A stretch of DNA of 10,407 bases from Gemmatimonadaceae bacterium (GTDB lineage: Bacteria; Gemmatimonadota; Gemmatimonadetes; Gemmatimonadales; Gemmatimonadaceae), in NCBI GenBank assembly GCA_013361745.1, contig JABFXM010000042.1:1-10407 (forward strand). Direction: 5' to 3'. Numbering within the stretch: the stretch's first letter is position 1; every line of letters starts with the position of its first letter. The position numbers and the translations under genes were made by a program. Below are positions 665-10,333 of this stretch, piece by piece. The notes beneath the pieces were generated by a model. That model was not told the origin of the DNA and made no database searches. It saw only the letters and a program-made list of their open reading frames with translations.

Positions 665-2338
665 TCACAGCTCGAGCAGCTCGTCCACCTTCTTCCCGAT
701 CACGCGTCCCACCGCCCAGCGCGTGATCGGCCCGGTCGCGAAGCGCAGCCACTTCGGTCCCGGCAGGTACCCGCTCGACATCGCCTGCACCTTCGCGACC
801 GCGGAGTCGCGGAGGATGCGCCGCTGTGCGACGTCCGCATCCTTCATGTCGACGTTGCTGTAGTCGACCCGGTTGACGTAGAGGTCCGTCCCGTCCGGCC
901 CGCGCTCGGGCGGATAGCCCTCCTCGACGCCCAGGATCTTCGGCAGCAGCGCGTACGCCTTCTGCCGCCCGAGCCGGAAGTCGAATTCGCGCCACTCGCG
1001 GTTGAAGAATCCGCCGAAGCTCATCAGCCGGTCGCCCGCCGTCTGTCCGGGGTCGGCGTAGATGACGTCGATGTCCAGCTCGTCCTTCCTGTCGAGCCCC
1101 GCGATGCTGTTGAGGACGAAGATCATCGTCGTCAGCATCGCCGTGCGCTGTGGGCCGAGCCCCTCGATCACCGGCGCGTGCCTGCGCGCCGTGCGGTCGA
1201 GCGACTGCTGCAGGTAGTCCGCGGGATAACGCCCCGGGAAGAGCTCCTGCTTCTTCGCGACGATCGACGCCGCGCTCTGTCGCAGCTCGGTGGCGAACGC
1301 CTCCGGATCGGCGACGGTGTTCGACTCGACCATCGCGCGCAGCCGCGCGAGCAGGTCGTCGCGCCAGGTGATCTCCTGGTTCACGCGCCGGGCGCGCAGC
1401 CAGTCGTTCGCGGTCGCCTCTCCCTCCACGATCGACGCGAGCCGTGCCGCGGTGGCGAGCAGCGAGCTCTCGCTGGTGAAGTTCATCGCCGCCGAGCGAT
1501 TGAGGTTCGCGTCGACGAGGAGGAACTTGCGGCCGTCGTCGATCTCGCCCCCGTCGGCGGCGAGGGAGAGCTGCACCGCCTCCTTGATCGGCTCGTTGTT
1601 GAACACGCCGCCGTCCACGTAGCAGAACTGTCCCGGGAAGGGATCTGTCGTGCAGTTCGGCCACGCTTCCTTCGCCGCGTCGACCATCGAGGGCGGGAAG
1701 GCGAGCGGAAAGCTCCCCGACGCGACCGCCGCGTTCCTGATCGCCCGCCACTGCGCGAGGTCGCGCGCCTGCGCGTCGTCGAGGGTGAAGCGCCGGCGCT
1801 CGGCGAAGAAGGTCGAGGTGAATGCCTCGCCGCGGCTCAGCCGGTCGGGGATCGCGTAGTCCACCCCGCACATGTTCGAGAGGGTGAAGCTGAGCCGGAG
1901 CGTGTCGGGGGCGAAGCGGGCGCGCGTCGCCGTGCCCAGGGGCCGCGCGAGGAGGAAGTCGTCGGCGATCCCCTCGACCGGTCGCTTCGAGAGGAAGGCG
2001 TTCCCCGGCATGTCCTTCGTGAGCCCGCGGATGTCGATCCGGTCGACCCACGCGTCGTGAAGCAGGGCGCGGTCGGCGAAGTCGTTCATCACCGCGCGAC
2101 CGACGAGCGCCGCGGTCATCGAGCCGGCGGAGGCGCCGGTGATCACGTCGAGGATGCATGGCGTGCCACGCCCCGCGAGCAGGTCGAGGACGTAGAGGAC
2201 CTCGGCGAGCACCCCGGCCTCGAAGCTGCCTAACGATACGGCGCCCGAGAGGATGAGCGCGAGCCTGTCCGGTGTACCCCGGCGTTCCCCCGGCGCCGGC
2301 TCATGGGCCGTGGAGCCGTCCCGCTCGCCACTCGGCAT
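665..2338 (-). CDS. Patatin-like phospholipase
   Basis: A 557-residue protein with the patatin Ser-Asp dyad. The nucleophile elbow is DVITGASAGSM, with Ser70 in G-A-S-A-G. The catalytic Asp is in the DGG motif, YVDGGVFNNEP, at Asp242. The oxyanion segment is LSGAVSLGSFEAGVL (30-44), where the usual Gly-rich GGGxxG run is reduced to S-G-A-V-S-L-G. Patatin enzymes hydrolyse acyl ester bonds of phospholipids or other lipids. No signal peptide or transmembrane segment is seen, so it is probably cytosolic or peripheral on the inner membrane. About 300 residues follow the catalytic domain with no domain I recognise. The start at 2338 is preferred over an in-frame ATG at 2422 because AGGGGAG lies 6 nt before it and the longer version would run across the divergent promoter. 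Leu36 is a TTA codon, very rare here, and lies inside a CGTTAGGC octamer. It is divergent from the sugar-binding lipoprotein gene. Confidence 0.9.
   Translation of the reverse strand: MPSGERDGSTAHEPAPGERRGTPDRLALILSGAVSLGSFEAGVLAEVLYVLDLLAGRGTPCILDVITGASAGSMTAALVGRAVMNDFADRALLHDAWVDRIDIRGLTKDMPGNAFLSKRPVEGIADDFLLARPLGTATRARFAPDTLRLSFTLSNMCGVDYAIPDRLSRGEAFTSTFFAERRRFTLDDAQARDLAQWRAIRNAAVASGSFPLAFPPSMVDAAKEAWPNCTTDPFPGQFCYVDGGVFNNEPIKEAVQLSLAADGGEIDDGRKFLLVDANLNRSAAMNFTSESSLLATAARLASIVEGEATANDWLRARRVNQEITWRDDLLARLRAMVESNTVADPEAFATELRQSAASIVAKKQELFPGRYPADYLQQSLDRTARRHAPVIEGLGPQRTAMLTTMIFVLNSIAGLDRKDELDIDVIYADPGQTAGDRLMSFGGFFNREWREFDFRLGRQKAYALLPKILGVEEGYPPERGPDGTDLYVNRVDYSNVDMKDADVAQRRILRDSAVAKVQAMSSGYLPGPKWLRFATGPITRWAVGRVIGKKVDELLEL
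2228..2235 (-). repeat. CGTTAGGC octamer inside the patatin gene
   Basis: On the minus strand it reads TCG TTA GGC AGC, encoding Ser35-Leu36-Gly37-Ser38 in the oxyanion-hole segment. Leucine here is normally CTC or CTG, so the TTA codon departs strongly from local usage. Confidence 0.7.
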
Positions 2339-2478
2339 CGGCTTCTCCCCTGTAACGTTAGGCGGCAAAGTTGTGGCCGGCGCGGCCAGCCGGCAAGGGA
2401 GCGGCCGCGAATCGACGGGCACGCTCTGGCGCGGCGGCGGTCGGCGCCGCAGAATCCCTCTCGACTCCCACCACGCCC
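2339..2478. promoter_or_regulatory. Divergent promoter region, patatin / sugar-binding lipoprotein
   Basis: A 140-bp intergenic region between two outward-facing start codons. It contains a CGTTAGGC octamer (2356-2363), the wider shared element (2356-2373), and a flanking 8-bp palindrome TAACGTTA (2353-2360). Directly after the shared element is a GC dyad, TGGCC-GGCGC-GGCCA (2374-2388). AGGGGAG before the patatin start is a good ribosome site. The plus-strand leader of about 105 nt has no clear ribosome site before ATG 2479. I could not place a standard -35/-10 pair with confidence. Confidence 0.6.
2356..2373 (+). promoter_or_regulatory. Shared 18-bp element, copy 1 (contains CGTTAGGC)
   Basis: It reads CGTTAGGCGGCAAAGTTG and matches copy 2 (7842-7859) at 16 of 18 bases. 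It ends 105 nt before the ATG of the plus-strand lipoprotein gene and starts 17 nt upstream of the minus-strand patatin ATG. Spacing to both genes is almost the same as for copy 2. It could be an activator or repressor site, or part of a promoter core; the sequence alone does not decide. Confidence 0.5.
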
Positions 2479-3540
2479 ATGCATCCGATCACACGCCCGC
2501 TTCTCGCCGCCCTCGCCGTCTCCCTCCTCGCCGTCGCCTGCGAATCCCGCCCCGCGAACGGCTCGGCCTCCGCCGCCACCGGCCGCCCCGCCAACGCCCC
2601 CGCCTTCGCCTCGTCCGGCAGCGTTCCCGACGAGGGGACGGTTCAGCCGGTGGCGCAGTCGCCGAAGAAGCCGCTCCGCATCGCGGTGCTCGGCCTCGAG
2701 AGCAGCCCCTTCTGGATCCCCGTGAAGGCGGGGGTCGACCGCGCGCGGAAGGAGCTCGCCTCCCACAACACCACCGTCGACTGGATCGTCCCCGGCGAGC
2801 AGCACACCGCCGACGTCTTCGGGCGCGCGATCGACGCCGCCGTCACCCGGCAGTACGACGCGATCGCGACGATTGCCGGGGACGCCGGCGTCGCCGCCTA
2901 CATCGATCGCGCGGTGAAGGCGGGGATCCCGGTCGCGACCTTCAACTCGGAGACCGACACCCCGAACGAGCGGCTCTTCTTCGTCGGCGCCGACAGCTAC
3001 AAGCAGGGCCAGGCGGCGGGCGACATCATGTGCCGCGCCGTCGGCTCGAAGGGGAAAGTCGGCATCATCACCGGCTTCTTCGCCGTCGAGGCGCACCAGG
3101 CGCGCGTCAACGGCTTCGAGGACACCCTGAAGAAGGAATGCCCGGGCGTCGTCGTCGTCGGCCGCGTCGAGAACCAGGACAAGGGCGACATCGCGTATCA
3201 GGAGGCGGAGGACTTCATGACCGCGCACCCGGACCTCTCCGGGATCATCGCGATCGCGGGCTCACCCTTCGGCGCCGCGCGCGCCGTCGAGGAGGCGGGA
3301 AAAAAGGGTAAGATCCACGTCGTCACCTTCGACGCGGTGGACGAGACCCTCGACTTCGTCGAGAAGGGCGTCACCGACGCGTCGATCGGCCAGGACCCCG
3401 ACGCGCAGGGGCACGACCCGGTGATCCGGCTCTACAACTACCTCGTCGCCGGCCAGATGCCACCGTACGGCCGCCTGATCACGAGGGCCGAGGTGATGAC
3501 GAAGGAGAACGTCTCGCGCTTCCGCGCCCCGCGGCAGTGA
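2479..3540 (+). CDS. Periplasmic sugar-binding lipoprotein (RbsB-like, ABC type)
   Basis: A 353-residue protein starting with a type II signal peptide: a basic N-terminus, the hydrophobic run LLAALAVSLLAVA, and lipobox Cys21. A low-complexity Pro/Ala/Ser linker follows to about residue 60. The mature part is a type I periplasmic-binding fold of the ribose/galactose/rhamnose class. It begins LRIAVLGLESSPFWIPVKAG, then has a second strand around YDAIATIAGD, IPVATFNSETD, and the C-terminal half with VGIITGFFAVEAHQARVNGF and IHVVTFDAVDETLDFVEKG. Such proteins capture a sugar outside the inner membrane and deliver it to an ABC permease. No permease or ATPase gene lies next to it. The next gene downstream, galT, begins 30 nt after its stop, which suggests galactose or a related sugar as ligand. 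ATG 2479 is chosen over the upstream in-frame ATG at 2371 because it starts directly at the signal peptide. Confidence 0.9.
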   Translation: MHPITRPLLAALAVSLLAVACESRPANGSASAATGRPANAPAFASSGSVPDEGTVQPVAQSPKKPLRIAVLGLESSPFWIPVKAGVDRARKELASHNTTVDWIVPGEQHTADVFGRAIDAAVTRQYDAIATIAGDAGVAAYIDRAVKAGIPVATFNSETDTPNERLFFVGADSYKQGQAAGDIMCRAVGSKGKVGIITGFFAVEAHQARVNGFEDTLKKECPGVVVVGRVENQDKGDIAYQEAEDFMTAHPDLSGIIAIAGSPFGAARAVEEAGKKGKIHVVTFDAVDETLDFVEKGVTDASIGQDPDAQGHDPVIRLYNYLVAGQMPPYGRLITRAEVMTKENVSRFRAPRQ

Positions 3541-3554
3541 TCGCCGCTCGCCGC

Positions 3555-3562
3555 CGTTAGGC
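3555..3562 (+). repeat. CGTTAGGC octamer between sugar-binding gene and galT
   Basis: It lies in the 30-nt gap between TGA 3538-3540 and GTG 3571. Its AGG sits about 10 nt before the GTG and is the only sequence there resembling a ribosome site, so the octamer might double as one. Confidence 0.7.
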
Positions 3563-3570
3563 AGCACGCC

Positions 3571-4608
3571 GTGAGCACGACATGGGAGGAGCGCTGGCAC
3601 CCGCTGCGCGAGGAGTGGGTGATGGTCGCCGCGCACCGGCAGACGCGTCCCTGGACCGGCCAGACCGTGGCGCCGGCGGAGCAGCAGCCGCCGCGCTACG
3701 AGTCCGGCTGCTACCTCTGTCCGGGGAACGTGCGCATCAGCGGCGCGGTGAACCCGCGCTATGAGGGCGTCTTCGTCTTCGACAACGATCATCCCGCCGT
3801 CGGCCCCGAGGCGCCGCTCGAGCCGGAGACGCCGCCCGCGCCCTACCGTGTCCGCCGCGCCGACGGCGTCGCGCGGGTGATCTGCTACTCGCCGCGCCAC
3901 GACCTCACCCTGGCGCAGATGTCCGTCGGCGACATCGCCCTCGTCGCCGATGCGTGGCGCCGGCAGATGCGCGACCTCGGGGCGCGCGCCGAGGTCGCGC
4001 AGGTGCTGATCTTCGAGAACAAGGGCGAGGTCGTCGGCGTCTCCAATCCGCATCCGCACGGACAGATCTACGCGACGAACTTCACCTGGAAGACCTTCGA
4101 CGCCGAGCACGAGGCGCAGCGGCGTCACGCGCGTGACACGGGGCGCCCGCTCTTCGAAGACATCATCGCCGCCGAGCGGAAGGACGGACGACGCGTGCTG
4201 TACGAGGACGAGCACACCATCGCCTTCGTGCCCTGGTTCGCGCGCTACGCCTACGAGGTGTACATCGCGCCGAAGCGCCGAGTGCCGCACGTCTCCGCGC
4301 TCACGGACACAGAGTGCGAGTCGCTCGCCCGCGCGCTGAAGGATGCGACCGTCCGCTACGACAATCTCTGGCGGATGTCCTTCCCGTACGTGATGACGCT
4401 GCACCAGGCGCCGACCGACGGGAGCGAGGTGCGCGACTTCCATTTCTTCATCGGCTTCCTTCCGCCGCTCCGCCGGCCGAACATGCTGAAGCATCTCGCC
4501 GGCCCGGAGATCGGCGCGGGCAACTTCCTCAGCGACACCTCCCCCGAGGACAAGGCCGCCGAGCTGCGCGCGCAGTCCACCGTGCACTACCTGGGGGACG
4601 CGTCGTGA
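3571..4608 (+). CDS. galT: Galactose-1-phosphate uridylyltransferase
   Basis: A 345-residue cytosolic enzyme of the Leloir pathway. It moves UMP from UDP-glucose to galactose-1-phosphate, giving UDP-galactose and glucose-1-phosphate. The N-terminal [16 protein letters not shown] (8-23) is typical. The zinc site is visible as Cys47-x-x-Cys50 (CYLCPGN), His110 (SPRHDLTL) and His161. The active-site motif [11 protein letters not shown] (158-168) contains the nucleophile His163, which carries the UMP. LHQAP (His278) and FHFF (His291) fit the second metal site of the E. coli enzyme, but the first His of its HxH pair is replaced by Asp289. The C-terminal [19 protein letters not shown] is characteristic. 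The start is GTG 3571; an ATG nearby at 3582 is out of frame. Its stop overlaps the next gene's GTG (GTGA), implying coupled translation with the sugar kinase. Confidence 0.95.
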
Positions 4609-6044
4609 CGCGCGGCGCGGCGTTGCGCGCCGACGACCCCCCCGACGTCGCACCCTTCGTCGCGGCCGTGGAGGGGCAGGCCGACTTCTTCGAGCGTGAC
4701 ACGCCGATCGTCCTCGCCCGCGCGCCCGGGCGGCTCGACGTCATGGGCGGGATCGCCGACTATTCCGGCTCGCTCGTGCTCGAGCTCCCCCTCGCCGTCG
4801 CCACCCTCGCCGCGGCGCAGCTCGCGAGCGACGGCCGCCTCACCGTGCGCACCCTCGCCCTCCCCGCGGACGACGCGGCGAGCGAGGTGACCGTCGCGCT
4901 CGACGCGCTCGCCCCCGGCGGCGCGCCCCTCGACTACGAGGCCGCGCGCGCCCTCCTCGCCCGCGATCCACGGCGGCGGTGGGCGGCGTACGCGTTAGGC
5001 GCGCTCGTCGTGCTCGCGCGCGAACGCTCGCTGCGCCTCACGCGTGGCGTGCGGCTCCTTCTCGACTCGAGCGTGCCGTCGTCGAAGGGTGTCAGCTCCT
5101 CCGCCGCGCTCGAGGTCGCGTCGATGCAGGCGCTCGCCGCGGCGCACGGCATCGCGCTCGAGGGACGCGAGCTCGCGCTCCTCTGCCAGATGGTCGAGAA
5201 CCAGGTCGTCGGCGCGCCATGCGGGGTGATGGACCAGATGACCGCGGCCTGCGGTGAGCGTGATCGCCTGCTCGCCCTCCGCTGCCAGCCCGCAGAGCTC
5301 GAGGGGCCGGTCGCGATCCCGTCCGGGCTCGAGCTGTGGGGAATCGACTCGGGGATCCGCCACGAGGTCGGCGGCGCCGATTATGGCGCCGTTCGCGTCG
5401 GCGCGTTCATGGGCTATCGCATCATCGCCGATATCGCGGGGCTCACCGTCATGCAGATATCCGAGGGTCGCGTGCGCATCGACGACCCGCGCTGGCACGG
5501 CTATCTCGCGAACGTGACGCCCGACGAGTGGGAGCGCGAGCTGCGCGATCGGGTCCCGCCGACGATGAGCGGCGCCGATTTCCTCGCGCGCTACGCCGGA
5601 ACGACGGATCCTGTCACGCGCGTCGACCCGTCGCGCACGTACGCGGTGCGCGCGCCGACCGCGCATCCGATTCACGAGCATCATCGCGTCCGGCGCTTTC
5701 GTACGCTGCTCGAGGGTAGTGCCCGCGCCGAGTCGGAGCGGACGGAGCTCGGTGCGCTGATGCTCCGATCGCACGAGAGCTACGGCGCGTGCGGACTGGG
5801 CTCGAGCGGCACCGATCGCCTCGTGGAGCTCGCGCGCGGCGTCGGCGTGCCGGCGGGCATCTACGGCGCGAAGATCACCGGCGGCGGGAGCGGCGGTGTC
5901 GTCGCCGTGCTCGCGCGCACGGGGTCGCGCGACATCGTCGAGCGCATCGCGCGCGAGTATGCTCGCGAGACCGGACGCTCCACGGCCGTGCTCGGTGGAT
6001 CGTCGAGCGGCGCGGCACGCGTCGGGGCGCGGACGATCCGGTGA
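4605..6044 (+). CDS. GHMP sugar kinase, L-arabinokinase/galactokinase type
   Basis: A 479-residue ATP-dependent sugar-1-kinase placed where galK would be expected. All three GHMP motifs are present: [18 protein letters not shown] (38-55), the ATP loop [16 protein letters not shown] (159-174), and [14 protein letters not shown] (423-436). CGVMDQM (206-212) supplies the likely catalytic Asp210. The first motif differs from galactokinase (GRVNLIGEHTDYNGG): the GEHTDY core is GGIADY. This motif, with [41 protein letters not shown] and [13 protein letters not shown], matches my memory of the kinase half of plant L-arabinokinase (ARA1) more closely than GalK. The plant enzyme has an extra N-terminal glycosyltransferase-like domain that is absent here. 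It is also longer than E. coli GalK (382 residues). The product would be galactose-1-phosphate or L-arabinose-1-phosphate. GTG 4605 overlaps the galT stop by 4 nt and fixes the start. Leu131 is a TTA codon inside CGTTAGGC. Confidence 0.88.
4993..5000 (+). repeat. CGTTAGGC octamer inside the sugar kinase gene
   Basis: In frame it reads GCG TTA GGC, encoding Ala130-Leu131-Gly132. This is one of only two in-frame TTA codons I found in the window's genes; the other also lies inside this octamer. Confidence 0.7.
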
Positions 6045-6075
6045 CCGGCACCCTCGCGAGCGCGCCACGGGCGCC

Positions 6076-6122
6076 GTAGCTTCCTTCCCCTGCTCGGATC
6101 GCCACAGCGTCACCCGGAGGAG
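6076..6122 (+). promoter_or_regulatory. Possible promoter core and ribosome site before the VOC gene
   Basis: The 81-nt gap after the kinase holds GTAGCTTCC (6076-6084), one of the few AT-containing stretches there. Its TAnnTT pattern also appears as TAAGTT at 7853-7858, in the second divergent region. GGAGGAG (6116-6122) is a strong Shine-Dalgarno sequence just before GTG 6126. The ribosome site is convincing; the promoter part is tentative. Confidence 0.4.
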
Positions 6123-6125
6123 CCG

Positions 6126-6530
6126 GTGCACCCCACGCGCAGGAACGGCAAGATCTGCTACCTCGAGATCCCGACCGCGGACATCGCGCGATCGGTGCGC
6201 TTCTACGAGGCCGTCTTCGGCTGGAAGACGCGCAAGCGCGGTGACGGTGCCACCGCCTTCGACGACGCGGTCGGTGAAGTCAGCGGGTCCTGGGTGAACG
6301 GCCGCCCGTCGTCGCCGGCGCCGGGGCTGCTCCTCTACATCATGGTGGACAGCGCCGACGCGACCGTCGCCCTCATCATCGCGCACGGCGGGCGCATCGT
6401 GCAGCCCATCGGCGCCGACTTCCCCGAGATCACCGCGCGCTTCGCCGATCCCGACGGCAACGTGCTGGGCATCTACCAGGAGCCGACGCCCGCCGGTGGA
6501 CGACGCTCGGCGCCGATGATACTCCCCTGA
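6126..6530 (+). CDS. VOC family protein (glyoxalase/bleomycin-resistance fold)
   Basis: A 134-residue single-domain protein with the paired beta-alpha-beta-beta-beta modules of the vicinal oxygen chelate superfamily. Module one starts KICYLEIPTADIARSVRFYEAVFGW (split here as KICYLEIPTADIARS, 9-23, and VRFYEAVFGW, 24-33). Module two ends ARFADPDGNVLGIYQE (104-119), the standard closing strand. Candidate metal-binding acidic residues are Glu14 and Glu119. Members include glyoxalase I, extradiol dioxygenases and drug-binding proteins; nothing here picks one. Most uncharacterised members of this size and motif are annotated only as VOC proteins. The GTG start at 6126 is supported by GGAGGAG 3 nt upstream; its core GGAGG gives a 5-nt spacing. 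It has its own 81-nt upstream gap, so it may be transcribed separately from galT and the kinase. Confidence 0.87.
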   Translation: MHPTRRNGKICYLEIPTADIARSVRFYEAVFGWKTRKRGDGATAFDDAVGEVSGSWVNGRPSSPAPGLLLYIMVDSADATVALIIAHGGRIVQPIGADFPEITARFADPDGNVLGIYQEPTPAGGRRSAPMILP

Positions 6531-6540
6531 TCACGATCAG
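6527..6540. terminator. Palindromic junction containing both convergent stop codons
   Basis: CTGATC (6527-6532) and GATCAG (6535-6540) are perfect inverted copies separated by AC. The plus-strand stop TGA (6528-6530) lies in the left arm and the minus-strand stop TGA (6537-6539) in the right arm. The stem is short (at most 5-6 bp) with no T tract, so strong termination is unlikely. The symmetry may simply reflect two TGATC endings facing each other. Confidence 0.3.
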
Positions 6541-7823
6541 AACTCGCTCATCGAGTTCGAGAAGCGCGGATTCACGACGTTGTTGAACACCGAGCCGAAG
6601 GTGTAGTTCAGTCCCGCGAAGACGAATGCGTTGTAGGGGCTCGCGAGCTGCGACCGGCGCAGCAGCACCTCGTCGCGCGTCAGGCTCCCCTTCGCGAGGT
6701 AGATCTGGTCGTGCATCACGCTGTAGTTGCCGAAGACATTCAGGTTCAGCCCCTTGAACAGGCGAACCTCGGCGTCGAGGAAGTACGTCAGCCGGCTCTG
6801 CGCGATGTTGTCGAGGTAGTGGTAGCCGTTGACGTCGAGCTCCAGCGAGCCCCACTTCTGCTTCTGCGAGAGCGTGAGGCTCAGTCCCTCGAAGGGGCGG
6901 GTCTCCGACGTCTTGAAGTAGATCGTCGTGTCGTTGTAGAGCAGATGCTTGCTCCCGACGCGGTACTGCAGCACGAGGGCGCGTCGGGTCGCCTCGGAGT
7001 ACGGGTAGAAGTTGAACTCGACCGCCGGGGCGACGGTCGCCACGAGATGCTCGTTGAGGAAGGTCGACGATGCCGCGCTCGCCGTCAGCCCCGCGGCCCA
7101 GCGCTTCCGGATCGTCTTCACCTGCTGCATCGCGCCACCGTAATCGCGACGCACGCTCGTCACGCGATCGGGGCCGATGGTGAACGCCTGCCCGTTGTAG
7201 TTCTCGCTCAGCCGGAAGTTGGTCTTCCACTGCTCGGTGAGGCGGTTCGCGTTGATGAACCCGTAGACGTAGTCGCTGCGGAAGTTGCGCTCGCGCGACG
7301 CGTTGAGGTTGGCGCCGACGCGGAAGACCCACGCCTTCCACGGATCGCGCGTCGTCGCCTTCTTCGCCGTATCCGTCGATGCGGCGACGGCGAGCGTCGC
7401 GCGCGCCGCGTCGGGAGTGCGCGCGAGATAGCGCGCCAGCCCGAGCTTGATCGTCCGCGACAGGATCTGCCGCGACTCGTCCTCGGTCGCGCCCTGCGGC
7501 GTCGTCACCGACACGGTGTCGTCGACGCCGGCGAAGCGATGTTGCCCGTAGAACGCGAGGGTGAAGAGCCGCCCGCCACCGCCCGTCGCCTGCCGCGTGA
7601 TCAGCACGTGCACGTCCGCCGCGCTTCGCTCGCGGACGTGGTCGACGAAGGTGATGTCGGTGCGGTAGAAGTCCGGATCGCAGTAGAAGTCGCTGCAGTC
7701 GAGGTACATGCTGAAAGCGCGCGTACCCTGCGCACCGAGCCGCGTGCTGGTGACGAGAGTCGCGCAGAGGAGCACGAGCAGGAGCGCGCGCGTCGAGGCG
7801 CGACATGGAGCGGGACTGTGCAT
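6537..7823 (-). CDS. Secreted protein with C-terminal outer-membrane beta-barrel, unknown function
   Basis: A 428-residue protein. It starts with a signal peptide (basic residues, then ALLLVLLCATLV, ending near RLGAQ, cleavage about residue 31). The mature N-terminal part has a Cys pair in LDCSDFYCDPDFYRTDITF (Cys43, Cys48), then a compact domain with FVDHVRERSAADVHVLITR and a Gly-rich GGGGRLFTLAFYGQ. From about residue 165 to the end there are many alternating polar/aromatic strands (such as WKTNFRLSENYNGQAF and LNLNVFGNYSVM). The protein ends in Phe, as outer-membrane barrels inserted by the BAM complex often do. I recall this Cys-rich/VRxRxxADVHVL head plus barrel layout from uncharacterised proteins of other diderms, but know no function. 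The start at 7823 is chosen because the signal peptide begins there; an in-frame ATG at 7964 would cross the divergent promoter. The ribosome site is weak. Confidence 0.8.
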   Translation of the reverse strand: MHSPAPCRASTRALLLVLLCATLVTSTRLGAQGTRAFSMYLDCSDFYCDPDFYRTDITFVDHVRERSAADVHVLITRQATGGGGRLFTLAFYGQHRFAGVDDTVSVTTPQGATEDESRQILSRTIKLGLARYLARTPDAARATLAVAASTDTAKKATTRDPWKAWVFRVGANLNASRERNFRSDYVYGFINANRLTEQWKTNFRLSENYNGQAFTIGPDRVTSVRRDYGGAMQQVKTIRKRWAAGLTASAASSTFLNEHLVATVAPAVEFNFYPYSEATRRALVLQYRVGSKHLLYNDTTIYFKTSETRPFEGLSLTLSQKQKWGSLELDVNGYHYLDNIAQSRLTYFLDAEVRLFKGLNLNVFGNYSVMHDQIYLAKGSLTRDEVLLRRSQLASPYNAFVFAGLNYTFGSVFNNVVNPRFSNSMSEF

Positions 7824-7962
7824 CGTTGACTCGGGGGTCGTCGTTAGGCGCCTAAGTTGGCCGTCGCCGGCGTCGGCACGCAAGGCCGCCGCCGCGGGCT
7901 CCGCGCTCGACTTGCGCGTGCGCCCTTCCGGTCGGCGCGCCCGTCGTGCATCGTGAAAGTCC
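7824..7962. promoter_or_regulatory. Divergent promoter region, beta-barrel / aspartic protease genes
   Basis: A 139-bp intergenic region, almost the same length as the first divergent region (140 bp). It holds the second copy of the shared 18-bp element and a perfect 12-bp palindrome, TTAGGCGCCTAA (7844-7855). The following GC stretch (7860-7877) can form an imperfect hairpin, as also happens after copy 1. TAAGTT (7853-7858) is a possible promoter core for the plus strand, giving a leader of about 100 nt. GAAAG sits 4 nt before ATG 7963. Confidence 0.6.
7842..7859 (+). promoter_or_regulatory. Shared 18-bp element, copy 2 (contains CGTTAGGC)
   Basis: It reads CGTTAGGCGCCTAAGTTG and differs from copy 1 at two positions. 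It ends 103 nt before the plus-strand ATG and starts 18 nt upstream of the minus-strand ATG, against 105 and 17 for copy 1. In both cases the plus-strand gene is a lipoprotein. Confidence 0.5.
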
Positions 7963-9234
7963 ATGCGCCGCCTCTTCCTCCTCGCGCTCGCGCTGGTCGT
8001 CGTCGCCTCCTGCGCCCGACAGACCGCGACGCCGCCCGCCGCGCGGCTGACGCTCGACGAGGTCTCGCGCCTTCGCCGGACGCGCGACTACTTCACCCTG
8101 CGCGACCGCCTCGCCCTCACCGGCGACACGACCAGCACGGCCGGGCTCTACGCGCGCGGCATCGTCGAGCACGCGATGAACCGGCCCGCCGAGTCGAACG
8201 CGATGCTCGCGCGGCTGCGGCGCGCGCCCGGCGTGAGCGACTCGCTTCTCGCCGACGCGTGGGAGCTGACGATGGCCAACGATCTCCGCCTCGGCGCCTA
8301 CGCCCACGGCGCGGCGGTCGCCGACAGCCTGCTCGCCGGCCGCTGGGTCCTCGATTCGCTGCGCGAGCTCGACGCGCGCAACACCCAGCGCATCTTCCAC
8401 GCGCTCGTCGGCGTTCCGGCGACGACGATGGTCGCGACGGGCGCGAGCCACGTCGTCCTCGAGAACGGCGACCTCCCGGTCGTCGTGAACGACTCGGCGC
8501 GCGCCTACGCCTTCGACACCGGCGCGAACCTCTCGGTGCTCGTGCGCTCCGAGGCGACCGCGCTCGGGCTGCGCGTCATCCCCGCCGGGCTCGACGTCGG
8601 CTCCTCGACGTCGAAGCGCGTCACCGCCGATCTCGCCGTCGCCGACCGCGTGCGCATCGGCGCGATGGAGTTCCACGACGTCGTCTTCCTCGTGATGGAC
8701 GACGCGCTGCTCACCTTCCCGGGTGGCTACCGGATCCGCGGCATCATCGGCTTCCCCGTGATCGAGCTGATGGGCGAGATCCGGCTCGGCGGCAGGCGGA
8801 CCCTGAGCGTGCCGGCGGCGATCCCCGTGCGCACGCAGGGCAATCTCCTCCTCGACGAGCTCACCCTGCTGACCCCCGCCGAGTGGGAGGGACGCGCGCT
8901 GCGCTGCCGCCTCGACACCGGCGCCGGCTCGACGGAGATCTACGAGCCCGTCTACCGCCGCTACCGCGCCGCGATCGACTCGAGCACCACGAGCGCGCAG
9001 CGCAAGGTCGGTGGCGCGGGCGGGGTGCAGGTGCTCCCCGTGCGCGTCGTGCCTAACGCGAAGCTCGAGGTGGCGGGGACGGTCGCGACGGTGAAGACCC
9101 TCGACGTCGTCACGCAGTCGCTGGTGCGCGACGAGAAGGAGAACTACCTCGACTGCAACCTCGGCCACGACGTCTTCGACCAGTTCGCGGAGATGATCGT
9201 GAACTTCCGCGACATGGCGGTCGTGCTCCGCTAG
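7963..9234 (+). CDS. Retropepsin-like aspartic protease lipoprotein with two DTG motifs
   Basis: A 423-residue protein. A type II signal peptide ends in VVASC (lipobox Cys17), so it should be anchored in a membrane facing the periplasm or surface. Residues 30-140 are helical and Leu/Ala/Arg-rich, perhaps TPR-like. Two protease halves follow. Half one has FDTGANLSVL (Asp185) and closes with RGIIGFPVIELM (259-270). Half two has RLDTGAGSTEIYE (Asp318) and closes with NLGHDVFDQF (399-408). Each half thus carries the DTG catalytic loop and the later hydrophobic-Gly motif of retropepsins (aspartyl protease families of the gag-asp type). With both Asp residues present, the chain could form a pepsin-like pseudodimer active site without dimerising. 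The substrate is unknown. The next gene starts 5 nt after its stop, so the two probably form an operon. A CGTTAGGC octamer lies in codons 363-365 and continues into the first base of codon 366. Confidence 0.87.
   Translation: MRRLFLLALALVVVASCARQTATPPAARLTLDEVSRLRRTRDYFTLRDRLALTGDTTSTAGLYARGIVEHAMNRPAESNAMLARLRRAPGVSDSLLADAWELTMANDLRLGAYAHGAAVADSLLAGRWVLDSLRELDARNTQRIFHALVGVPATTMVATGASHVVLENGDLPVVVNDSARAYAFDTGANLSVLVRSEATALGLRVIPAGLDVGSSTSKRVTADLAVADRVRIGAMEFHDVVFLVMDDALLTFPGGYRIRGIIGFPVIELMGEIRLGGRRTLSVPAAIPVRTQGNLLLDELTLLTPAEWEGRALRCRLDTGAGSTEIYEPVYRRYRAAIDSSTTSAQRKVGGAGGVQVLPVRVVPNAKLEVAGTVATVKTLDVVTQSLVRDEKENYLDCNLGHDVFDQFAEMIVNFRDMAVVLR
9051..9058 (-). repeat. CGTTAGGC octamer (minus orientation) inside the aspartic protease gene
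   Basis: On the plus strand GCCTAACG spans codons GTG CCT AAC GCG (Val363-Pro364-Asn365-Ala366). CCT is an unusual proline codon in this GC-rich context. Confidence 0.7.
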
Positions 9235-9239
9235 CCGCG

Positions 9240-10331
9240 ATGCTCGCGTCGATCCGCCACGCGCTCGCGGTCGCGACACCGCTGGCCGCGCTGCTCGCGA
9301 CCGGCTGCAGCCGCCCGCGCGAGATCACCCACGTCTTCGTGATCATCCTCGAGAACAAGGGGATCACGACCACCTTCGACAGCCCCTCGCCGGCGCCCTA
9401 TCTCGCGGAGACGCTCACGCGCGAGGGCGCCTTTCTTCGCCAGTACCACGGGATCGGCCACTTCAGCCTCGGCAACTACGTCGCGATGATCTCGGGGATC
9501 GCGCCGACACGCGAGACGCAGGGCGACTGCGGCCGTTACGAGGACTTCGTGCAGCGGGGCACTACCCCCGACGGCCAGCCGATCGGCCGCGGCTGCATCT
9601 ATCCCGCCTCGATCCCGACGCTCCCCAACCAGCTCACCCCGCGCGGACTGTCGTGGCGCGCGTACATGGAGGACATGGGCGCAGACCCCGCGCGCGAGCC
9701 GGCCAGCTGCGGCCACCCCGTCGTCGGCCAGGCGGATCTCACCGAGGGCGCGACGCGCACCGACCAGTACGCGACGAAGCACAACCCCTTCGTGTACTTC
9801 CACGCCATCATCGACTCGGTGGCGTCCTGCCAGGCGAACGTCGTCGCGCTGCCGGCCCTCGCGGCGGACCTTCGCTCGGCGCGTGGCACGCCGAACTTCG
9901 TCTTCGTCTCGCCGGGCCTCTGCCACGACGGGCACGACACTCCGTGCACGAACGGCGAGCCGGGCGGGCTCGTCTCCGCCGATCGCTTCCTCCAGCACTG
10001 GGTGCCGCTCATCATACAATCGCCGGCGTACCGCGAGGGCGGCCTCCTCATCATCACCTTCGACGAGGCCGAGGGGAGTGATGCGTCCGCCTGCTGCGAC
10101 GAGCAGCCAGGACCCAACGTCGCGCTCGCGGGAATCACCGGCCCGGGCGGTGGACGCACCGGAGCGGTGCTGCTCTCGCCGTTCATCGCGCCGGCGACGG
10201 TCTCCGACGTCGCGTACAACCACTACTCGATGCTGCGCAGCATCGAGGACATCTTCGGGCTGTCGCACCTCGGCTACGCGGGACAGGCTGGACTGGACAG
10301 CTTTGGCGACGACGTCTTCGGACGCCGTTAG
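9240..10331 (+). CDS. Phosphoesterase lipoprotein, acid phosphatase / SapM-like
   Basis: A 363-residue exported protein of the bacterial phosphoesterase family that includes phospholipase C and acid phosphatases such as SapM/AcpA. These enzymes release phosphate from phosphomonoesters or phospholipid headgroups using bound metal. The N-terminus has a type II signal peptide ending ALLATGC (Cys23). The first metal motif is HVFVIILENKG (Glu38-Asn39). HFSLGNYVAMISG (74-86) matches the HPSLPNYLAxxSG segment with the probable Ser/Thr nucleophile region. HNPFVYFHAI (181-190), LCHDGHDTPC (227-236), LLIITFDEAEGSD (269-281, Asp275) and YNHYSMLRSIEDIFGL (326-341) are the remaining signature blocks, in the normal order. 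At least eight Cys remain in the mature chain, suggesting disulphides. It starts 5 nt after the aspartic protease stop, so co-transcription is likely. The stop TAG lies inside a CGTTAGGC octamer. Confidence 0.9.
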   Translation: MLASIRHALAVATPLAALLATGCSRPREITHVFVIILENKGITTTFDSPSPAPYLAETLTREGAFLRQYHGIGHFSLGNYVAMISGIAPTRETQGDCGRYEDFVQRGTTPDGQPIGRGCIYPASIPTLPNQLTPRGLSWRAYMEDMGADPAREPASCGHPVVGQADLTEGATRTDQYATKHNPFVYFHAIIDSVASCQANVVALPALAADLRSARGTPNFVFVSPGLCHDGHDTPCTNGEPGGLVSADRFLQHWVPLIIQSPAYREGGLLIITFDEAEGSDASACCDEQPGPNVALAGITGPGGGRTGAVLLSPFIAPATVSDVAYNHYSMLRSIEDIFGLSHLGYAGQAGLDSFGDDVFGRR

Positions 10332-10333
10332 GC
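10326..10333 (+). repeat. CGTTAGGC octamer over the phosphoesterase stop codon
   Basis: In frame it reads CGC CGT TAG GCA, so the octamer provides the last sense codons' end and the TAG stop (10329-10331). TAG stops are used at other gene ends here too, so the stop alone is not unusual. Confidence 0.65.

Follow-up and report, generated by a model that had tools for sequence, protein, structure and literature searches.

Uptake words have been established in two proteobacterial families (PMC7811141). For the uptake signal sequence (USS), the same source gives a spacing of ~1,000 bp, presents a relatively even distribution as the expectation from molecular drive and reports under-representation in strongly constrained coding sequence (PMC7811141). 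The DNA uptake sequence (DUS) of Neisseriaceae is reported to occur in dialects that follow phylogeny (PMC3630211). The window considered here, which is the whole stretch of 10,407 nucleotides (nt) that was analysed, comes from a Gemmatimonadaceae bacterium (contig JABFXM010000042.1) and contains repeated copies of the octamer CGTTAGGC, the core word of which is GTTAGGC. To our knowledge, there are no uptake-word families beyond those two proteobacterial ones. No description of a GTTAGGC word in Gemmatimonadota was found in the open-access literature; the word is absent from the accessible part of PMC13340088, and Gemmatimonadota from that of PMC5217627.

GTTAGGC appears to be a dispersed, orientation-independent DNA recognition word which has accumulated genome-wide in certain genera of one order. 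By analogy with the systems above, it is tentatively read as a self tag resembling the DNA uptake sequences.

Abundance and DNA-level writing of the word

Seven exact CGTTAGGC octamers occur in the window, against a mean of 0.20 and a maximum of 3 in 200 dinucleotide-preserving shuffles. The genome to which the window belongs, as contig 165 of 619, is 72% complete at 2.97 Mb (G000), and the excess is genome-wide, with 880 copies of CGTTAGGC against 57 of the reversed word and, in other contigs of the same genome (115 kb), 40 copies against 1.5 expected. A sequence-only reading of the window had proposed that a whole-genome count close to expectation would make this a chance cluster. The count lies far above expectation, and a chance local cluster is ruled out by the genome-wide total together with that of the other contigs.

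The word was counted in 399 distinct Gemmatimonadota genomes (sets of 60 and 395, with 56 shared), of which 29 are rich in it, with 168 to 4469 copies, and 370 are poor, with 0 to 93. The reversed word is a crude control; in motif-poor genomes it outnumbers the word itself. Because of this crudeness an order-1 Markov model was used, on sampled stretches with the motif masked. The excess over the model was ~8 to 53 times in the seven rich genomes sampled, with 248 copies against 5.1 in Gemmatirosa (G017), 62 against 1.5 in G021, 98 against 2.6 in G022, 50 against 2.4 in G032, 19 against 1.4 in G012 and 6 against 0.6 in G030. Motif-poor genomes were at chance (G023, 1 against 1.0; G016, 0 against 0.6; G024, 1 against 1.2). 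G027 is a sampling exception, with 2 copies in the 60 kb taken though 1100 in the genome.

By order-2 z-score, GTTAGGC is the top 7-mer in G017, G001, G022 and G000, second in G012 behind its own one-base shift, and third in G055 behind two shifts. The octamer CGTTAGGC is the top 8-mer in the first five of these genomes and second in G055, and the word is best described as CGTTAGGC with A or G as the next base. In Gemmatirosa, most single-base variants do not exceed expectation. The clear exceptions are first-base changes and CGTTGGGC, the sole inner variant in excess (72 against 24); more one-mismatch variants are raised in G022, where CGTTGGGC reaches 38 against 8.2. Other 10-mers, such as AGGACTGAAG, AGGGCAGGAG and ACTCGGGACT, are also strongly over-represented on the Gemmatirosa chromosome (L034-L053, L032), and possibly derive from repeated coding families.

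The word is written at the level of DNA, as seen in codon and genic/intergenic counts that rest on a rough, own-made gene caller. TTA codons lie inside GTTAGGC in 20/21 cases in the sampled part of the window's genome and 150/166 in G017, and in 39-64% of cases in four other rich genomes (G032 28/46, G022 70/109, G021 21/54, G012 11/28), against 0/6, 0/1 and 1/3 in the poor G023, G016 and G024. Where Ala, Pro, Ser or Thr precedes Leu-Gly, six rich genomes use the spelling NCG-TTA-GGC at 20-35% of occurrences (the window's genome 20/72, G017 128/541, G032 21/104, G021 19/55, G022 35/103, G012 11/56), and three poor genomes at 0/153 (G023 0/43, G016 0/49, G024 0/61). Further copies encode Pro-Asn or (R/G)LT on the opposite strand, fall on stop codons or are intergenic. 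The samples of the motif-poor G016, G023 and G024 contain very little TTAG (0.13-0.16 per kb), and 0.06-0.31% of their Leu codons are TTA.

The same pattern is present in rpoB. Sixteen of the 19 TTA codons in rpoB of 13 rich genomes lie inside the octamer, TTA is missing from rpoB of 14 poor genomes, and at four columns with an octamer TTA the Leu-Gly is the same in rich and poor genomes. Occupied rpoB columns are shared between rich groups no more than at random (16 against 17.8), which leaves inheritance of the same sites across these groups unsupported.

Both strands are used, in a near-even split in Gemmatirosa (2275/2194). Copies lie inside genes in 218/260 cases in Gemmatirosa and 38/40 in the window's genome. 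Intergenic density exceeds genic density in Gemmatirosa (0.83 against 0.56 per kb) and G022 (0.88 against 0.69 per kb); intergenic copies number 2/40 in the window's genome, which is below genic density, and 0/19 in G012. A protein-level cause is ruled out by the use of both strands and several frames, the intergenic copies and the synonymous spelling. The suggestion of the sequence-only reading that the cause acts on DNA, and is neither local nor at protein level, is thus borne out by the genome-wide excess and the synonymous spelling. Among the classes that it had offered, a genome motif of Chi, FtsK-orienting polar sequence (KOPS) or DUS type and a methylation target stand, whereas a regulator site or promoter part is disfavoured since most copies are inside genes.

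Distribution and turnover among genomes

All 29 rich genomes belong to a single order, in which they are spread over three families (20, 8 and 1), and the window's family includes a rich genome, that of Gemmatirosa kalamazoonensis KBS708. Five multi-species genera are uniformly rich (g1, 2/2; g21, 3/3; g27, 2/2; g30, 4/4; g48, 6/6) and two are mixed, g22 being rich in 3/4 (the exception is G243) and g41 in 1/3. G243 was placed in g22 yet has 3 copies, and almost none of its DNA could be aligned to G022; the top-scoring match to a 20-kb G022 stretch has 69% identity over ~320 bp. Owing to this distance it was left out as a within-genus contrast, and to judge from its sequence it is probably misplaced in the genus.

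On an rpoB tree (one gene, 27 genomes, three rows partial), sister pairs of opposite state are G021/G015 (support 100/99), G055/G040 (98/92) and G022/G033 (91/97), with a weaker pair in G032/G016 (83/61). From the genus counts and these pairs, the state of the word is mostly constant inside a genus and changes from one genus to another, and the tree is compatible with gain or loss alike.

Sites are conserved within a genus. For one 20-kb stretch of genus g22, 16/21 sites are retained in G364 against 33% of composition-matched 7-mers (p 6e-5), and 12/20 are retained in G369 against 31% (p 0.007). Across five genomes from other rich genera, 5/60 sites are retained, which is the background level, and the homologous places differ by 2-5 bases in 50/60 cases and by one base in 4/60. 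This fits a word that selection or drive has built up and that turns over from genus to genus.

Samples of 120 and 50 kb from two megaplasmids of Gemmatirosa have the same density as its chromosome (0.65, 0.64 and 0.59 per kb). The contig G017:C3 is 100% identical to KBS708 plasmid NZ_CP007129 over the 20 kb compared. In the same assembly (L031 = G017:C1; L032 = G017:C2:1-20000), a contig of 20,952 bases shows internal repetition with a period of 14,997 bases (100% across 5,003 bases), and 13,560 bases of it match the beginning of the chromosome contig exactly; it is either an additional circular molecule or a duplicate produced in assembly. Three tandem motif copies were observed at L051:10869-10898 with 11-base spacing and at L032:18235-18274 with 16-base spacing.

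Copies in the window

The copies of the window, and one palindrome, are as follows.

2228..2235, minus strand: CGTTAGGC in the patatin-like gene 665-2422 (minus); TCG TTA GGC reads Ser-Leu-Gly
2356..2363, plus strand: CGTTAGGC at the boundary of the patatin-like gene (minus) and the sugar-binding-protein gene (plus)
3555..3562, plus strand: CGTTAGGC between the sugar-binding-protein gene (end 3540) and galT (open reading frame from 3571)
4993..5000, plus strand: CGTTAGGC in the galactokinase-like GHMP kinase gene; GCG TTA GGC reads Ala-Leu-Gly
7842..7849, plus strand: CGTTAGGC at the start of, or upstream of, two divergent genes
7844..7855, no strand: palindrome TTAGGCGCCTAA, the motif of 7842 followed by an inverted 6-of-7 copy
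9051..9058, minus strand: CGTTAGGC in the aspartyl protease-like gene 7963-9234 (plus); CCT AAC reads Pro-Asn
10326..10333, plus strand: CGTTAGGC holding the TAG stop of the phosphoesterase-family gene 9240-10331

The sequence-only reading had listed these seven copies as over-represented, and its positions and strands are all correct; none of the 200 shuffles reached seven. Its contexts inside coding sequence, on a stop codon and between genes are found in the window; by the predicted gene starts, the copies at 2356, 3555 and 7842 are intergenic or at gene edges. The palindrome it had claimed at 7844-7855 is present. A recount confirmed the nine TTAG/CTAA tetramers it had found by eye: seven belong to octamer copies, one to the palindrome's second arm (7852-7855), and the last is at 142. 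The TTAG tetramer itself is without excess (9 against 9.93 expected).

Pfam matches of the window's open reading frames are an acetyltransferase, patatin, sugar-binding protein, galT, galactokinase-like GHMP kinase, glyoxalase, aspartyl protease and phosphoesterase; one of the nine frames has no match, and the matches are ordinary. Few relatives are alignable at the window's sites. Among these, site 9051 differs by one base in the congener G001 and site 4993 by several bases in the motif-poor G015.

Readings of the word and known systems

The anatomy of the word, which is asymmetric, exact, on both strands, dispersed, in core genes and conserved within genera only, appears to match uptake sequences best, and by this analogy we infer a self-DNA uptake signal. 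Within the type IV pilus/ComEC transformation machinery, a receptor at the cell surface would prefer word-bearing DNA, and each event of uptake and recombination would favour the allele with the word. The word would then pile up through molecular drive, by synonymous or tolerated substitutions, as the DUS in Neisseriaceae and the USS in Pasteurellaceae. A genus would gain or lose it when the receptor gained, changed or lost its preference. ComEC is found in 25/29 rich genomes and PilT in 16/16 of those examined, which makes transformation machinery plausible.

Several results weigh against an uptake tag. ComEC (29/31) and PilT (20/20) are equally common in poor genomes, so that they do not explain the difference between rich and poor; several ComEC misses are fragmentary assemblies. 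No receptor candidate was found. The rich label is unclustered on the rpoB tree, unlike DUS dialects: it needs 9 changes (bootstrap 8-9) against a shuffled mean of 9.2, and 286/500 shuffles are as low. Copies in the rpoB stretches of the 13 rich genomes are at each genome's average density (19 against 16.6 expected), unlike the under-representation of the USS in strongly constrained coding sequence. One-mismatch forms, the expected decay products of drive, are scarce in Gemmatirosa though raised in G022. Of six genomes tested for spacing, Gemmatirosa and the window's genome have fewer gaps under 300 bp than chance gives (23 against 40.5, p 0.0005, and 0 against 3.5, p 0.02), a result in favour of the tag; in G032, G021, G022 and G012 the spacing is not significantly even, and gaps in G032 are uneven if anything. 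Close inverted pairs showed no excess in the sampled genomes. No alternative dialect was seen in the poor G016, G023 and G024 (60-80 kb each) or G020 (20 kb), although weaker ones could escape such samples. The lowest-density Gemmatirosa stretch sampled (L048) carries MurJ, UvrC, EngA and SurE; these are housekeeping genes and not a mobile island, and therefore give no support for depletion on such islands. The uptake tag is kept at a tentative grade, somewhat short of an even chance, because of the mismatch with phylogeny, the rpoB density and a function that is proposed by analogy.

The main rival, next after uptake and somewhat unlikely, is a modification or binding site comparable to HIP1 of cyanobacteria (GCGATCGC). 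Here GTTAGGC would be recognised by a methylase, or by a protein for chromosome organisation or repair, that some genera had acquired, and the sites would be kept for the housekeeping role of that protein. The patchy, exchange-like distribution between genera agrees with such a site, as do the exactness of the word, its conservation within a genus, its equal density on chromosome and megaplasmids and the even use of strands. GTTAGGC is, however, non-palindromic, unlike HIP1, and restriction-modification sites are usually avoided rather than enriched in genomes. PF01555, the methylase family searched for, passed the cut-off in only 8/16 rich genomes against 12/20 poor ones, is absent from Gemmatirosa, G021 and G022, and is rejected as a tracker of the word.

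The length and exactness of the octamer also recall a Chi-like recombination hot spot. Chi of the RecBCD kind, one of the candidates of the sequence-only reading, falls away: RecC was found in 2/29 rich genomes (5/30 poor) and leading-strand polarity was not clear under any choice of origin in 21 stretches of 20 kb (best 0.581 against 0.554 at random, p 0.10). The site might instead be read by another helicase-nuclease, of AddAB or AdnAB type, and the RecC counts agree with variation of these enzymes between genera. With 27/29 rich genomes lacking RecC and the polarity not seen, a Chi-like site is judged distinctly unlikely.

A mutational or repair bias, in which an enzyme turns near-matches into GTTAGGC much as very short patch repair acts at its sites, would account for a word that is genome-wide and strand-symmetric, and for the excess of CGTTGGGC in Gemmatirosa and G022. 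No single precursor is apparent, and the 2-5-base differences at most homologous places do not fit one-step editing from one. One-mismatch forms are not depleted overall and sites within a genus are conserved above background, which makes this bias a very improbable cause.

GTTAGGC is identical to the end core of the integron attC site (consensus GTTRRRY). Long cassette arrays were observed in motif-poor members of the order, L232 (G036:C95), L233 (G137:C2), L234 (G160:C5) and L235 (G267:C14), with attC-type repeats of ~100 nt that end in CGTTAGGC (for example in G036). In the window's genome, an integron integrase gene scores above the cut-off of its family (G000:C288:279-1220). Given this identity, there is a slight chance that an uptake tag would lead to preferential import of foreign cassette arrays, with ~one GTTAGGC per cassette. 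The watermark would then arise as a side effect of a transformation system that collects cassettes and has its receptor exchanged between genera.

The copies might also be attC sites or remnants themselves, given the exact core, the arrays and the integrases common in the order. In the window, the copies at 2228 and 2356 form an inverted pair, 136 bp end to end, of attC-like orientation and length, with a DNA fold energy of -29.5 (136 nt, without shuffle control) against -29.2 and -33.1 for two true attC sites; the left copy lies within patatin codons. These are the 2/7 window copies with a partner core at attC distance. Such a core is found 35-160 nt upstream of 117/136 array copies against 7/527 dispersed copies in four rich genomes; this pair alone set aside, the contrast refutes attC sites as a general explanation. 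Integrases pass the cut-off in 15/29 rich and 15/31 poor genomes, an equal presence that rejects them as the driver, copies occupy conserved rpoB codons, and dispersed attC sites are accordingly barely credible.

If GTTAGGC is an uptake word, it would be an independent case in a common soil phylum, and DNA self-tagging would have arisen elsewhere than in proteobacteria; its gain and loss are testable in sister genera that differ in having it. If its reader is a modification or chromosome protein, it would pose a new HIP1-like puzzle, with the sequenced strain KBS708 among the rich genomes. Under either reading, a large share of TTA codons has been taken over by the word.

The word resembles the DUS and USS as an asymmetric short word with hundreds to thousands of copies on both strands, within and between genes, and tolerated at synonymous positions. 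Its highest density, ~0.87 per kb (about one per 1.1 kb), is near the USS spacing (PMC7811141). It differs in belonging to another phylum, in its letters and in the lack of phylogenetic clustering of the rich label; the inverted-pair terminator habit is not seen for GTTAGGC. With HIP1 it shares a huge excess of an octamer in some genera only, mostly inside genes, whereas HIP1 is palindromic and its core is known to be methylated. With Chi it shares a non-palindromic, exact octamer spread genome-wide, but it is without strand polarity and RecC is almost absent from rich genomes. With the integron attC site it shares an identical 7-base core, but its copies are without a partner core at attC distance and without cassettes, and their orientations are mixed.

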